Shown here one piece after another: positions 3,106 through 35,253 of a DNA stretch of 64,000 nt (its first letter is position 1; every line of letters begins with the position of its first letter). The position numbers and the translations under genes are program-made. The notes beneath the pieces are model-generated. The model made no database searches and was not told the DNA's origin. It saw only the letters and a list, made by a program, of their open reading frames with translations. Source of the DNA: Candidatus Epulonipiscium sp. (GTDB taxonomy: Bacteria; Bacillota; Clostridia; Lachnospirales; Defluviitaleaceae). The DNA lies in contig JAAYQR010000007.1 of NCBI GenBank assembly GCA_012519205.1, forward strand, positions 1 through 64,000, read 5' to 3'.

Positions 3106-3875
3106 GAAATGAGCTTGAAATAAGGAACCTAGATGTATTTTATAAAAAAAGGCATATTGTAAAAAACATAGGCCTAACCATGGGCACAAAAGAATTCAAT
3201 GCCCTCTTAGGAAGGAATGGATGTGGAAAGACAACCCTATTAAAAGGGATTCTTGGACTTATAAAAACAGAAGGAAATATACTGCTTAATGGTGCATCCA
3301 TTCCAACCCTTGGGGTCAAGGAAAAAGCAAAAAGTATTGGATATATCTCACAACGAACGGATGTAACCTATTCTATTGGAGTTAAGGACTTAATACTAAT
3401 GGGATTAAATCCACATCTAGGAACCTTTGAGCAAATTGATAAACACCAAGAATTAAAAGTGATAGATATTGCAAAAGAATTAGGTATAGAAAAATTTTTG
3501 AATAAAGATTATTTGACCTTAAGTGAGGGGCAAAAGCAACTTGTAATCATTGCTAGGGCTATCGTACAAGATGCCAGTCTTTTATTGCTAGATGAACCAG
3601 ATAGCGCAATGGACTTCGTAGTAAGACATATCATCCTTCAAAAACTAAAAGAAATATTAATCCTTCATAATAAGATGGCATTAATAACCATGCATGATCC
3701 TAATTTCGCCCTATCCTATTGTGATAATATCTTTCTAATGAAGGATGGAGGCTTATTAGAAACCATCCGTGTTAAGGAAGATGGTATTAAGGAAATAAAA
3801 AGAAAGCTTAGACTTATTTATGGGGAAATCGACTTAATCGAATATAAAGGAAGTTTTTATATGGTGAAAGCATGA
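3102..3875 (+). CDS. ABC transporter ATP-binding protein, FecE/BtuD type
   Basis: A 257-residue ATPase with Walker A GRNGCGKTT, signature LSEGQKQL, Walker B LLLLDEPDSAMD and switch His in LITMHDPN. The start is ATG 3102, overlapping the permease stop as ATGA and preceded by AAGGAG (3088-3093). It powers the importer formed with the two preceding genes. Its own stop overlaps the mocA start as ATGA, so binding protein, permease, ATPase and mocA look translationally coupled. That coupling is the main reason to link the importer to molybdenum cofactor chemistry. Confidence 0.92.
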   Translation: MRNELEIRNLDVFYKKRHIVKNIGLTMGTKEFNALLGRNGCGKTTLLKGILGLIKTEGNILLNGASIPTLGVKEKAKSIGYISQRTDVTYSIGVKDLILMGLNPHLGTFEQIDKHQELKVIDIAKELGIEKFLNKDYLTLSEGQKQLVIIARAIVQDASLLLLDEPDSAMDFVVRHIILQKLKEILILHNKMALITMHDPNFALSYCDNIFLMKDGGLLETIRVKEDGIKEIKRKLRLIYGEIDLIEYKGSFYMVKA

Positions 3876-4468
3876 AAAAAAACAAACAAGCATTTGATGT
3901 AAGTTGCATTATTATGGCCAGTGGGGCCAGTACTAGGTTCGGCGATAACAAATTATTAGCAGATTTTCATGGAAGAACTCTAGTTGAACGGGTACTAGAT
4001 CAAATTCCCTTTGATTTATTCAAAGAAGTAATACTAGTAACCAGATATATAGAAATTAGGGAACTTGCTAAAAATTATCCTGTTGTTTGTATTTTGCATG
4101 ACTTTCCTAGACAGCGGGATACCATACGAGTAGGTATGGAGCATATTACCAATACCAAGGGGTGTATGCTTGTTACTTGTGACCAGCCCCTAAGAACCAT
4201 AGATTCTTTAAGGAAGATGTACCATATGTTTAATCAGCATCCGACTTCGGTGGTGAGACTTGGGTATCATGACTTGGTTGGCAATCCAGTGTTGTTTCCA
4301 AATCGATATTATGAAGAACTAAAAAATTTAATGCCTGGGCAAAGAGGTTTGGATGTAATCAAAGCCCATAAGGAGAACATAGTTATTGTACAAGCAAATA
4401 ATAAATACGAATTGGCGGATGTGGATACCCCTTACGACTTAATGAATTTATTAAACATCCCTGATTAG
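3872..4468 (+). CDS. mocA: MocA/YgfJ-like molybdenum cofactor cytidylyltransferase
   Basis: A 198-residue nucleotidyltransferase of the MobA-like fold. ASGASTRFGDNKLL forms the nucleotide-binding loop, and VTCDQPLR supplies the metal-binding Asp. MocA converts molybdopterin-Mo to the cytosine dinucleotide form used by xanthine-dehydrogenase-family enzymes. In SDMH clusters this subfamily (YgfJ) accompanies ssnA, ygfK and the selenium-dependent hydroxylase, exactly the genes found downstream. It starts four bases inside the ATPase gene (ATGA). A MobA role (GMP transfer) is less likely given the context. Confidence 0.85.
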   Translation: MKKNKQAFDVSCIIMASGASTRFGDNKLLADFHGRTLVERVLDQIPFDLFKEVILVTRYIEIRELAKNYPVVCILHDFPRQRDTIRVGMEHITNTKGCMLVTCDQPLRTIDSLRKMYHMFNQHPTSVVRLGYHDLVGNPVLFPNRYYEELKNLMPGQRGLDVIKAHKENIVIVQANNKYELADVDTPYDLMNLLNIPD

Positions 4469-4478
4469 AAAGGACATA

Positions 4479-5819
4479 ATGATGTATCTAATAGGAAATG
4501 GAAAAGTATTTACTAGAGATCCCAAGGTGCCCTATATTCCGAGGGGTGGAGTCTTCTTTGAAGGTAATCTAATTAGAGAAGTAGGTACCTTTGAAGCATT
4601 AAAGGAAAAATACCCCCAGGCAAAAATCATAGATGCAAAGAACCAAGTGATTATGCCAGGACTTATAAATGTTCATAATCATATCTATTCCTCATTGGCT
4701 AGAGGATTAAGTATCAAAAATCACAACCCAAAAAATTTTTTAGATATCCTTGAGGGTTTATGGTGGAATTTAGACAATCACCTAACCTTAGAAAATGATA
4801 GAATTAGTGCCCAGGTAACGTTTTTAAATTGTATAGAAAACGGTGTGACTACGGTCTTTGACCACCATGCTAGCTACAAAAAAACAAAAGGCAGCCTAAT
4901 GGAATTGGCCCAAATTGCAAAAGAATACAAAATTCGCGCCTGTCTTTGTTATGAGGTAAGTGATCGAAATGGTCAAGAAGAAATGAAGAAAGCAGTAAAG
5001 GAAAATGTGGATTTCATAAATTATGCAAATAAAGATACCTCTGACATGATAAAAGGTATCATGGGCCTTCATGCCAGCTTTACCCTAAGCGATGAAACCC
5101 TTAGGTATGTGGTAGAACAAAACCCAGAAAATGCAGGATACCATGTGCATATAGCAGAAGGAATGGATGATGTGGAGGATAGTCTTACAAAGTACGGCGT
5201 TCGTACTGTGGAACGGTTAAACTCCATGGGTATCCTTGGACCTAAGACGGTGGCAGGTCATTGTATCTATGTTGAGGATAAAGAGTTAGATATTCTAAAA
5301 GAAACGGACACCATGGTGGTTCATAATCCCGAAAGTAATATGGGAAATGCCGTTGGTGCCCCGGATGTACTGAAGATTTTTGCTAAAGGAGTATCAGTAG
5401 GGCTTGGAACCGATGGGTATACCAACGATATGATAGAAAGCTACAAGGTAGCCAATATCCTTCAAAAGCATCTACACAAAGATCCAAATTGTGCCTGGGG
5501 CGAAATTCCAACCATGTTATTTGAAAATAACGCTAAAATTGCTAATCGTTTCTTTGCAACCCCTTTAGGAAAAATCAAAGAAGGGTACGGGGCAGATATT
5601 ATATTCGTGGATTATGACCCTCTAACTCCGATGGACGAAAACAACCTAAATTCTCATATTTTATTTGGAATGAATGGTTCTTTGGTCACAACTACCATTT
5701 GTAACGGTGAGATTCTTATGAAAGATAGAAAGCTTCTTCATATAAATAAGGAAGAAGTAATGAAGGAAAGCAGAAAACAAGCAAAGGATTTATGGCAAAG
5801 GATTAATGACAAACGATAA
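4479..5819 (+). CDS. ssnA: SsnA, putative aminohydrolase of selenium/purine metabolism
   Basis: A 446-residue amidohydrolase-superfamily protein. It has the HxH metal site in LINVHNHIYSS, a His in YHVHIAEG, GHCIYV, and the catalytic Asp in GLGTDGYTND. Length and order match the SsnA subfamily, a marker of SDMH clusters with a role that is not well established (probably deamination of a purine-like compound). AAAGGA (4469-4474) precedes ATG 4479; a second ATG follows at once. The stop overlaps an ATG of the ygfK frame (TAATG). Confidence 0.88.
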   Translation: MMYLIGNGKVFTRDPKVPYIPRGGVFFEGNLIREVGTFEALKEKYPQAKIIDAKNQVIMPGLINVHNHIYSSLARGLSIKNHNPKNFLDILEGLWWNLDNHLTLENDRISAQVTFLNCIENGVTTVFDHHASYKKTKGSLMELAQIAKEYKIRACLCYEVSDRNGQEEMKKAVKENVDFINYANKDTSDMIKGIMGLHASFTLSDETLRYVVEQNPENAGYHVHIAEGMDDVEDSLTKYGVRTVERLNSMGILGPKTVAGHCIYVEDKELDILKETDTMVVHNPESNMGNAVGAPDVLKIFAKGVSVGLGTDGYTNDMIESYKVANILQKHLHKDPNCAWGEIPTMLFENNAKIANRFFATPLGKIKEGYGADIIFVDYDPLTPMDENNLNSHILFGMNGSLVTTTICNGEILMKDRKLLHINKEEVMKESRKQAKDLWQRINDKR

Positions 5820-28471: not shown

Positions 28472-28491
28472 TATCTTAATAAAAATCAAAT

Positions 28492-28600
28492 AAGTCTTCA
28501 GGGCAGGGTGTAATTCCCTACCGGCGGTAAAGCCCGCGAGCCGTAAGGCAGATTCGGTTAGATTCCGAAGCCGACAGTAAAGTCTGGATGAAAGAAGACA
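28492..28600 (+). ncRNA. FMN riboswitch (RFN element)
   Basis: The outer stem GTCTTC/GAAGAC closes the element (28494-28499 with 28594-28599). Inside are the conserved blocks AGGGCAGGGTG, CCTACCGGCGGTAAAGCCCG, CGAGCC and GCCGACAGTAAAGTCTGGATG, in the usual order. It binds FMN and, through the terminator downstream, reduces transcription of ribD-ribE-ribBA-ribH. Confidence 0.97.
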
Positions 28601-28659
28601 AGTTATAGTTTTAGCTATCATTTATTTTATAGAGAAGAAAGCTATATACTTATTTATTT

Positions 28660-32381: not shown

Positions 32382-32423
32382 AAAAGCCGGTTAGATTAGT
32401 TGAATTAATCTTAGCCGGCTTTT
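32382..32423 (+). terminator. Terminator of the riboflavin operon
   Basis: AAAAGCCGG (32382-32390) pairs with CCGGCTTTT (32415-32423), with an inner TTAGATTA/TAATCTTA stem. The remaining 160 bases up to the next gene start show no further feature I can support. Confidence 0.8.
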
Positions 32424-32586
32424 GCCATTTGAATAACTATAGGTATCATTGATATTAGGGAAGTTTATTGGTATCATAATATGAGAAGATAGGATATTTG
32501 TAAGAATGAAATTATAAAGCTTTTAATTAGGAATCCATAGAATGCATCATTTAAAATCGGACGTAAAGATAAAGGATTTGAGGTAT

Positions 32587-35253
32587 ATGACAAATAAACT
32601 AACAATTGGTATATTAGCAAATGTAGATGCCGGCAAAACAACGTTATCCGAAAGTATGCTATATTTAAGCGGAAAAATTGGTAAAATAGGTAGGGTGGAT
32701 AACCAGGATGCTTATTTAGATACAGATGACATTGAAAAAGCTAGGGGTATTACTATTTTTTCTAGCCAAGCAAATTTTGAAATCTGTTCAACCCAAATTA
32801 CCCTTTTAGATACACCGGGACATACTGATTTTTCTGTAGAAATGGAACGTACACTGCAGGTTTTGGATTATGCTATATTAGTAATCAGCGGTGCCGATGG
32901 AGTGCAAAGCCATACAAAGACCCTTTGGACCCTTTTGGAAATGTATGGTATTCCAGTATTTTTATTTATTAATAAAATGGATCAAAAAGGAATTGATAAA
33001 ATCAGGCTAATGAAATCCCTAAAAGAACGGTTAGGCGATGGATGCATCTCTTTTGAAAAGGACACAGGGAATGGATTTTATGAAGAAATTGCCATGGGTG
33101 GGGAGACTTTATTGGAAGAATATTTGGACACCGGGCGTGTAGAAACGGAAAGTATAAAAAGTGCTATTAAATCCCGTAAGATATTTCCCTGTTTTTTTGG
33201 TTCAGCCCTCAAATTAGAAGGCATTGATTTTTTTATGGAAAAGATGATTCAATATTCTAAAGGGCCCTTATATCCCGAAGCATTTGGTGCTAGAATTTTT
33301 AAGATATCTAGGGATGAACAAGGCAATAGGCTAACTCATATGAAACTTACCGGTGGTAGTCTAAGGGTAAGAGATATTTTAACAGGAGATAATTGGGAGG
33401 AAAAAGTCAACCAAATTCGCATTTATTCTGGCAAGGATTTTGAAGCTGTTAGTGAGGTACAAAGGGGGATGATTTGTGCTGTAACAGGGCTAACGCAAAC
33501 AAAACCTGGGGAGGGATTAGGGACAGAAAAAAGTTTTCTAAAATCTATTCTTGAACCAGTATTATCTTATCAGATTAAATTGCCTAAGGATTGTTCCCCG
33601 AGAGAGATTATGCCAAAGCTTCGAGAGATAGAAGAAGAGAATCCGGAACTTCATATTGTTTGGAATGAAACACTTCAAGAAATCCAGGTGCAAATCATGG
33701 GTGAGGTCCAAACTGAAATATTGCAAAGTCTTGTAAAAAAAAGGTTTAATGTAGATATATCTTTTGATGAAGGTCATATAGTCTACAAAGAGACCATTAC
33801 AAATACTGTGGAAGGAGTTGGGCATTTTGAGCCCCTTCGGCATTATGCAGAGGTTCATTTATTACTGGAGCCCGGGGAACGGGGTAGCGGTTTGCAATTT
33901 GAAACAGTCTGCAGTGAAGATGTCTTATCAAAAAATTGGCAGCGGCTTGTTTTGACCCATTTAGAAGAAAAGACCCATAAGGGTGTATTAACAGGCTCTG
34001 CAATTACGGATATGAAAATAACCCTAGTATCCGGTCGTGCCCATAATAAGCATACAGAGGGCGGGGATTTTAGAGAGGCAACTTACCGTGCCGTACGGCA
34101 AGGACTAAAAGAATCCCAATCTATACTGCTTGAACCCTATTACAGTTTTCAATTAGAAGTACCTAGAAATATGGTAGGAAGGGCTATGACTGATATTGAA
34201 AAAATGTATGGCACCAGTGAAATATTACAGACCGATGATGAAATGACAACCCTAATAGGAAGCTCCCCAGTCGTCACTATGCGGAACTATCAAAAAGAGT
34301 TAATGGCCTATACAAGAGGATTTGGCAGATTGTTTTGCACCTTTAAAGGATATGACTATTGCCATAATGAAGAGGAAGTTGTTAAGCAAGTGGGTTACGA
34401 TTCCGAAAGAGATATAGAAAATCCCACGGGCTCGGTATTTTGTTCCCAAGGAACAGGGTTTTTAGTTAGCTGGGATGAAGTAAAAGATTATATGCACATT
34501 GAAGGCTATCTTCAACCCAAACGAGATAATTTAGAAGAACAGTTTCATAATAAAATATCTTCTGATAGTAAATGGATAAGCTTAGAGGAAATCGATCAAA
34601 TTTTAGACAAAACGGTATCAAATCAAGGGAAGAAGTCTCCGTGGAAAAAAACGAAATCATCTGTGGAACGCTACTACAAATCAATGGGCCCCACCGGTGA
34701 ATTTAAGTCTAAAGAAATGGAACAAAAGAAGGAAAATTATCTTCTTGTAGATGGCTATAATATAATTTTTGCTTGGCCTGAGCTTAAGGAACTTGCAGAG
34801 AATAATCTAGATAGTGCAAGGGCCAAACTATTGGATATATTAAGTAATTATAAGGCAATTAAAGAGTATAAAATTATTGTAGTTTTTGATGCCTATAGAG
34901 TAAAAGGGCATAAAGAAGAAATGATTGATTACCAGGATATCTATGTTGTATATACGAAGGAAGCACAGACCGCAGATCAATACATTGAAAAATTTTCCTA
35001 TGAGCATAATAAAGAATACAATATTATAGTGGCTACATCGGATGGGCTTCAACAAATCATCGTAAGAGGTGCCGGTAGCGCACTTTTGTCTGCTAGGGAA
35101 CTTAAATTAGAAATTGAAGATGCCAATAAAAACCATCTAGAAGGCTATATGACTTTACAACAAGATGTTCAGAATCCTTTATTCGATTCGATACCTTCAG
35201 AAGTAAAATCACAAATGGAAATTATAAAAACCACTAATCCTTTTAAAAAATAG
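32587..35253 (+). CDS. TetM/EF-G-like ribosomal GTPase fused to a Rae1/YacP-type NYN nuclease domain
   Basis: An 888-residue fusion. Residues 1-650 resemble TetM-type ribosomal protection factors: G1 NVDAGKTT, RGITIF, G3 DTPGHTDF, G4 NKMD, then EF-G domains II-V. The domain IV tip around residue 486 reads AHNKHTEGGDFR, where TetM has its YSP loop. Residues 717-888 match Rae1/YacP, with LLVDGYN, VVFDAY, TADQYIEK and VATSD supplying the acidic nuclease residues. Rae1 cuts mRNA in the ribosomal A site in B. subtilis. ATG 32587 fits the TetM-type N-terminus; an ATG at 32542 would add 15 residues. It is probably a ribosome-rescue or regulatory factor. Confidence 0.9.
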   Translation: MTNKLTIGILANVDAGKTTLSESMLYLSGKIGKIGRVDNQDAYLDTDDIEKARGITIFSSQANFEICSTQITLLDTPGHTDFSVEMERTLQVLDYAILVISGADGVQSHTKTLWTLLEMYGIPVFLFINKMDQKGIDKIRLMKSLKERLGDGCISFEKDTGNGFYEEIAMGGETLLEEYLDTGRVETESIKSAIKSRKIFPCFFGSALKLEGIDFFMEKMIQYSKGPLYPEAFGARIFKISRDEQGNRLTHMKLTGGSLRVRDILTGDNWEEKVNQIRIYSGKDFEAVSEVQRGMICAVTGLTQTKPGEGLGTEKSFLKSILEPVLSYQIKLPKDCSPREIMPKLREIEEENPELHIVWNETLQEIQVQIMGEVQTEILQSLVKKRFNVDISFDEGHIVYKETITNTVEGVGHFEPLRHYAEVHLLLEPGERGSGLQFETVCSEDVLSKNWQRLVLTHLEEKTHKGVLTGSAITDMKITLVSGRAHNKHTEGGDFREATYRAVRQGLKESQSILLEPYYSFQLEVPRNMVGRAMTDIEKMYGTSEILQTDDEMTTLIGSSPVVTMRNYQKELMAYTRGFGRLFCTFKGYDYCHNEEEVVKQVGYDSERDIENPTGSVFCSQGTGFLVSWDEVKDYMHIEGYLQPKRDNLEEQFHNKISSDSKWISLEEIDQILDKTVSNQGKKSPWKKTKSSVERYYKSMGPTGEFKSKEMEQKKENYLLVDGYNIIFAWPELKELAENNLDSARAKLLDILSNYKAIKEYKIIVVFDAYRVKGHKEEMIDYQDIYVVYTKEAQTADQYIEKFSYEHNKEYNIIVATSDGLQQIIVRGAGSALLSARELKLEIEDANKNHLEGYMTLQQDVQNPLFDSIPSEVKSQMEIIKTTNPFKK

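Follow-up and report, generated by a model that had tools for sequence, protein, structure and literature searches.

A translational GTPase with a tethered Rae1/YacP nuclease that probably serves as Rae1 in many Clostridia

The window analyzed here is a 64,000-nucleotide stretch of a Candidatus Epulonipiscium sp. contig (JAAYQR010000007.1, positions 1 to 64,000), in which positions 32587-35253 (plus strand) encode a single 888-amino-acid protein made up of an EF-G/TetM-type GTPase, a tether, and a C-terminal NYN domain. The reading frame is open already at 32542 (32542-35253, plus strand); the ATG at 32587 was chosen as the start codon because the starts of the homologues align there and a GAGG ribosome-binding site lies upstream. 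The Pfam layout of these 888 residues agrees with the preliminary description of the locus, which had seen a translational GTPase and a C-terminal Rae1/YacP domain in one frame. The features of the locus are as follows.

32385..32425, plus strand: inverted repeat and T-run 3' of the upstream gene, a probable terminator (read from the sequence; not listed by the automatic scan)
32587..35253, plus strand: fusion gene, 888 amino acids (frame open from 32542; start set by homologue starts)
32599..33255, plus strand: GTPase (G) domain, residues 5-223 (Pfam GTP_EFTU; P-loop K17, T56, DTPGH with H79, NKMD)
33286..33765, plus strand: EF-G-like domains II and III, residues 234-393 (Pfam, II at 234-308 and III at 323-393, scoring at the cut-off or slightly under it; modeled with confidence)
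33775..34116, plus strand: EF-G domain IV, residues 397-510 (Pfam EFG_IV)
34042..34074, plus strand: domain IV tip loop HNKHTEGGDFR, residues 486-496, with YSPVSTPADFR as the Tet counterpart (alignment)
34126..34371, plus strand: EF-G domain V, residues 514-595 (Pfam EFG_C)
34360..34506, plus strand: family-specific C-terminal extension, residues 592-640, with C592, Y604, C619, G622, W629, and H637 (alignment; pLDDT >90)
34525..34722, plus strand: disordered tether, residues 647-712, containing a single short predicted helix at 666-677 (mostly pLDDT <50)
34741..35226, plus strand: NYN_YacP/Rae1 endoribonuclease domain, residues 719-880, with D722, N725, D768, D797, and D819 (Pfam; solved YacP)

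Because a probable terminator lies upstream, the fusion gene is probably transcribed alone, and it behaves as a single-gene unit. Across ~98 loci no informative gene family recurs within a few kilobases of the fusion; membrane/signalling and other broad families do recur near it, at scattered distances. PADLOC gave no match to a defence system. An ordinary FMN riboswitch (window 28490-28603) lies upstream of the riboflavin synthesis genes, which in turn precede the fusion gene. A conserved internal start that would yield a free nuclease was considered at the ATG of residue 706 and rejected, the methionine being absent in relatives. An assembly artefact was likewise dismissed, as ~98 full-length fusions come from independent assemblies, with some of the genomes in one contig.

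The C-terminal domain was assigned to NYN_YacP (PF05991, residues 719-880) with a Pfam E value of 1.3e-50 and 172 bits, against a cut-off of 24.6, and this part of the protein also matches the solved Bacillus subtilis YacP structures 5mq8 and 5mq9 (E 1e-24). Both matches support the initial assignment to Rae1/YacP, which had been made from the motifs LLVDGYN, VVFDAY, TADQYIEK, and VATSD. D722, N725, D768, D797, and D819 are invariant in 98 of 98 fusions. The active site of NYN nucleases consists of three conserved aspartates (PMC11346440), to which D722, D797, and D819 would correspond, residue by residue, judging from the order of the motifs. For B. subtilis Rae1 the activity described is endonucleolytic cleavage of mRNA in the ribosomal A site (Leroy 2017, as cited in PMC6613710 and PMC8266666), and the swarming defect that an efp mutation causes is suppressed when rae1 is lost (PMC6613710). 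The fusion shares with the B. subtilis protein the nuclease domain, its motifs, and its acidic residues, and likewise takes the place of the genome's single YacP copy; unlike that protein, the nuclease is here the C-terminal domain of an 888-residue translational GTPase and is encoded away from rlmB-sigH.

The N-terminal part has the features of an EF-G-type translational GTPase, that is, the GTPase motifs together with domains II to V as seen by Pfam, in the alignment, and in the model. K17, T56, D75, K130, and D132 are present in 98 of 98 fusions, H79 in 97, and N129 in 93. With catalytic residues kept in ~98 fusions, both halves of the protein look active. Tet(M), Tet(O), TetB(P), and their kin share the EF-G-like five-domain GTPase with the fusion, the identity to Tet(M), Tet(O), Tet(W), and Tet(S) is ~30%, and the solved sequence nearest to the GTPase half is TetM. 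Unlike the Tet proteins, the fusion has another tip and another C-terminal extension, belongs to a separate clade, scores under the curated cut-off, and has a nuclease attached.

At the tip of domain IV the protein reads AHNKHTEGGDFR (residues 485-496). The fusions have the pattern HxKHTEGGDFR, common to their unfused relatives, while TetM, TetO, TetS, TetW, TetQ, Tet36, and TetB(P) have [YF]SP[VA]STPADFR; residue 486 is His in 94 of 98 fusions versus Tyr or Phe in all eight Tet proteins, and residue 488 is Lys in 96 of 98 versus Pro in all eight. The earlier remark that the tip lacks the Tyr-Ser-Pro loop of TetM is therefore correct: HNKH stands at this position, and [YF]SP in every Tet protein compared. 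Domain V is followed by a private extension, CHN..EEV...Y.......SVFC..G.G..V.W....MH, found in the fusions and the unfused relatives and missing from the Tet proteins, in which C619, G622, W629, and H637 fall on gap positions and position 592 is not Cys. The conserved C592, C619, and H637 of this extension might be metal ligands. The GTPase tree places the Tet proteins in one clade (support 100) and the fusions, together with the unfused relatives, in a separate one (support 99). The curated tet_protect model (cut-off of 775 bits) gave 421 bits for the window protein and 389 for the Agathobacter fusion, while the positive controls TetM and TetB(P) scored 880 and 959. The window protein is also below the cut-off of the EF-G model (290 versus 659 bits), and the window's genome encodes two separate EF-G-type proteins besides the fusion. 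Family membership as a TETRACYCLINE-protection protein was thus rejected, with tip, extension, tree, and tet_protect score all against it. The label "TetM/EF-G-like" given in the preliminary description holds for the fold, but the protein is not a TetM and, from the tree, is best read as a member of a separate sister clade. The fusion of Agathobacter rectalis (L163 3980-6781, WP_306784676.1) is annotated as a TetM/TetW/TetO/TetS family protein, a tetracycline-resistance label that is probably a misannotation and could inflate resistome counts.

An AlphaFold2 model built from 104 homologues reached a mean pLDDT of 89 and a pTM of 0.74, an earlier model from 19 sequences having had a pLDDT of 68. 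Confidence in this model is high for domains I to V, for the extension as far as about residue 640, and for the nuclease (717-882), while residues 647-712 are predicted to be mostly disordered, a tether of ~66 residues. A structural comparison aligned residues 1-634 with EF-G and TetM in their ribosome-bound forms, with archaeal EF-2, and with further proteins of this fold. The distance between W629 and the NYN domain ranges from 73 to 157 residues across fusions, so a rigid geometry is not conserved.

Other GTPase-NYN fusions, which the preliminary description had proposed searching for, number ~98 at full length, and stand-alone yacP is gone almost throughout from the genomes that have them. 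Named carriers include Anaerovorax odorimutans, Fusibacter sp. 3D3, Ruminococcus flavefaciens, Intestinimonas butyriciproducens, Butyrivibrio, A. rectalis, and Monoglobus pectinilyticus. In the window's own genome (2.13 Mb, 98.75% complete) the fusion is the sole NYN_YacP protein. Of the 57 relatives, an intact fusion is found in 20 and a disrupted one in 1; another 26 have a stand-alone yacP, 10 have neither, and none has two full copies. Frames were listed for 148 genomes of the class sample (76 with one fusion, 1 with two, 62 stand-alone, 8 unclear, and 1 with both forms), and the phylum sample had 10 fused, 74 stand-alone, 1 unclear, and none with both. Both forms thus occur together in 1 genome among >200 clearly typed, a count to be read in the knowledge that the three samples overlap in some genomes and that related genomes are non-independent draws. 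That genome (G379; L206 and L207) is the only one sampled that has an intact rlmB-yacP-sigH locus plus a fusion. In another genome (G044, L057) a G domain is encoded at 2400-2795, and a second frame, 3417-4931, joins residues 131-393 directly to residues 655-856; this is a decayed or variant fusion that is missing domains IV and V and the extension and has retained the nuclease.

Stand-alone yacP sits between rlmB and sigH in six genomes (G001, G010, G014, G033, G260, and G379), a location that is a genomic habit and not a defining feature of the NYN_YacP domain family. A single contig of the window's genome carries both rlmB and sigH, and the 152 bp that separate them hold no remnant of yacP. 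G041 has 180 bp between the two genes and G012 has 5 bp; in G032, G003, G006, and G008 sigH does not directly follow rlmB. Because rlmB and sigH are contiguous, a second yacP missed in an assembly gap was rejected at the ancestral site. Two genomes, G054 and G028, encode intact fusions (883 and 878 residues) and have a broken yacP in the rlmB-sigH gap. The G054 remnant still reads LLVDGYN..., TTDQYIEE..., and RVATSDATEQVII, with stops in between, while the G028 remnant holds the first 26 positions only. Decayed copies of this kind would be the expected leftover of an old gene displaced by the fusion.

The NYN tree splits fused from stand-alone domains at one branch (97/94; recovered in 98% of bootstrap trees), and one fusion event is therefore the simplest reading; in the GTPase tree a single origin of the fusion is weakly supported (54). 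A single event, in an ancestor within Clostridia, is the probable origin. G001, of the window's own family, has kept stand-alone yacP and has an unfused GTPase with an apparent frameshift (L171 4743-5471 and 5354-6709); its gene content, together with the recent yacP pseudogenes, suggests that the fusion has moved between lineages.

The closest proteins without a nuclease are unfused "translation factor GTPase family" members of Clostridia, of the Ligilactobacillus salivarius plasmid pMP118, and of Paenibacillus cellulosilyticus. They belong to the same subfamily as the fusion, with a KHTxGGDFR-type tip, the CHN...SVFC..G extension, and ~41-49% identity; unlike the fusion, they are ~650 residues long and have neither tether nor nuclease. 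On the pMP118 megaplasmid the unfused gene (L165 4511-6902) adjoins rpsN (S14) and a "metal homeostasis" ORF, and one genome (G173) has two unfused copies (L176 and L177). Unfused GTPases occur alongside stand-alone yacP in ~12 of 54 genomes and without any YacP in 3 of 29, counts that do not support an obligate partnership between the unfused GTPase and free YacP. Since the unfused GTPase occurs both with and without YacP, it serves a purpose of its own, and its joining to the nuclease may merely couple two independent activities.

As free yacP is lost where the fusion is present, the fusion very probably is the Rae1 of its host, that is, does the Rae1 job. We also favor, with less assurance, the whole statement that the fusion is the host's Rae1 and is delivered to A-site mRNA by its GTPase. 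Rae1 would have been joined once, at the C-terminal end of a dedicated EF-G-like GTPase, and the joined form would then have displaced the stand-alone rae1. By analogy with the EF-G/TetM fold, the GTP-bound GTPase would dock in the factor site of a ribosome with an empty or unproductively occupied A site, and the family-specific tip of domain IV would probe the decoding center. GTP hydrolysis would then move or withdraw domain IV, and the nuclease on its flexible tether of ~66 residues, as modeled, would enter the vacated A site and cut the mRNA as Rae1 does; the resulting nonstop complex may be rescued by tmRNA, which is present in the window's genome. Domain IV and the nuclease cannot share the A site, so delivery would have to be sequential, or the mRNA be reached otherwise; a hand-over after GTP hydrolysis is feasible because the tether is flexible and ~66 residues long. 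Much more tentatively, the system may be one of GTP-driven delivery, in which an EF-G-like factor senses a particular stalled state and, on hydrolyzing GTP, cedes the A site to the endonuclease tethered to it, an energy-gated single-protein quality control in much of Lachnospiraceae and Oscillospiraceae.

The main alternative is that the halves were joined for convenience, the nuclease being a Rae1 that finds the A site unaided and the GTPase having an unrelated job in translation (e.g., back-translocation or the clearing of stalled complexes), so that fusion only co-localizes or co-regulates them. Unfused forms of each half exist and need not co-occur, the tether in the model is long and disordered, and B. 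subtilis Rae1 acts without a fused GTPase (Leroy 2017, via PMC6613710 and PMC8266666); but free yacP has been displaced by fused copies, the halves are almost never re-separated, and both address one ribosomal site, and we regard this reading as unlikely. An improbable one, which goes back to Atkinson 2015 and to automatic annotation, is that of a protection protein against tetracycline or another A-site antibiotic to which an RNase has been added. The EF-G/TetM fold, the nearest solved sequence (TetM), and the family name given to the A. rectalis protein speak for it, but the fusions lie outside the Tet clade, are without the YSP/FSP tip, score about half the curated tet_protect cut-off, have no recurrent resistance-type neighbor among ~98 loci, and are the sole Rae1 throughout whole chromosomal lineages. 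That the protein matures rRNA or tRNA, the GTPase recognizing a ribosome assembly state and the NYN domain trimming RNA, appears very improbable: such a role was an early prediction for NYN domains (quoted in PMC4342817), and stand-alone yacP adjoins the rRNA methyltransferase gene rlmB, but PMC6613710 and PMC8266666 describe the one close relative that has been characterized, Rae1 of B. subtilis, as an endonuclease that cuts mRNA in the ribosomal A site.

The architecture has been described before. According to Atkinson 2015 (PMC4342817), a YacP-like NYN domain has been gained by Tet proteins in ten Clostridiales; the authors placed the NYN-fused proteins inside Tet and proposed testing their ability to act as an rRNA RNase and their role in resistance. 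These proteins have the same architecture as the fusion and, likened here by description and not by sequence, are almost certainly of the same family. The preliminary description had called the idea little described; descriptions are indeed few, but one had thus already appeared. That text, in the portion available, contains no report of a replacement of stand-alone yacP, unlike the present analysis. We found no other mention of the architecture in the open full-text literature, a body of work that does not include Leroy 2017, and no experiments on any member of the fusion family in the literature searched. As far as our tools show, what is new is the separation from the Tet clade with a diagnostic tip and extension, the breadth of the family, the tree support for one fusion event, and the displacement of stand-alone rae1, which has left remnants at its former site.

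The decayed yacP at the ancestral site makes the claim of functional replacement concrete and testable by simple complementation. If the proposed reading is true, Rae1-type mRNA cleavage in a large part of gut-type Clostridia would be done by a nuclease with a built-in translational GTPase, a natural case in which sensing and cutting at the A site are combined in one factor. It would also provide a handle on how Rae1 is recruited to stalled ribosomes generally and a reason to drop these genes from tetracycline-resistance counts in microbiome surveys.
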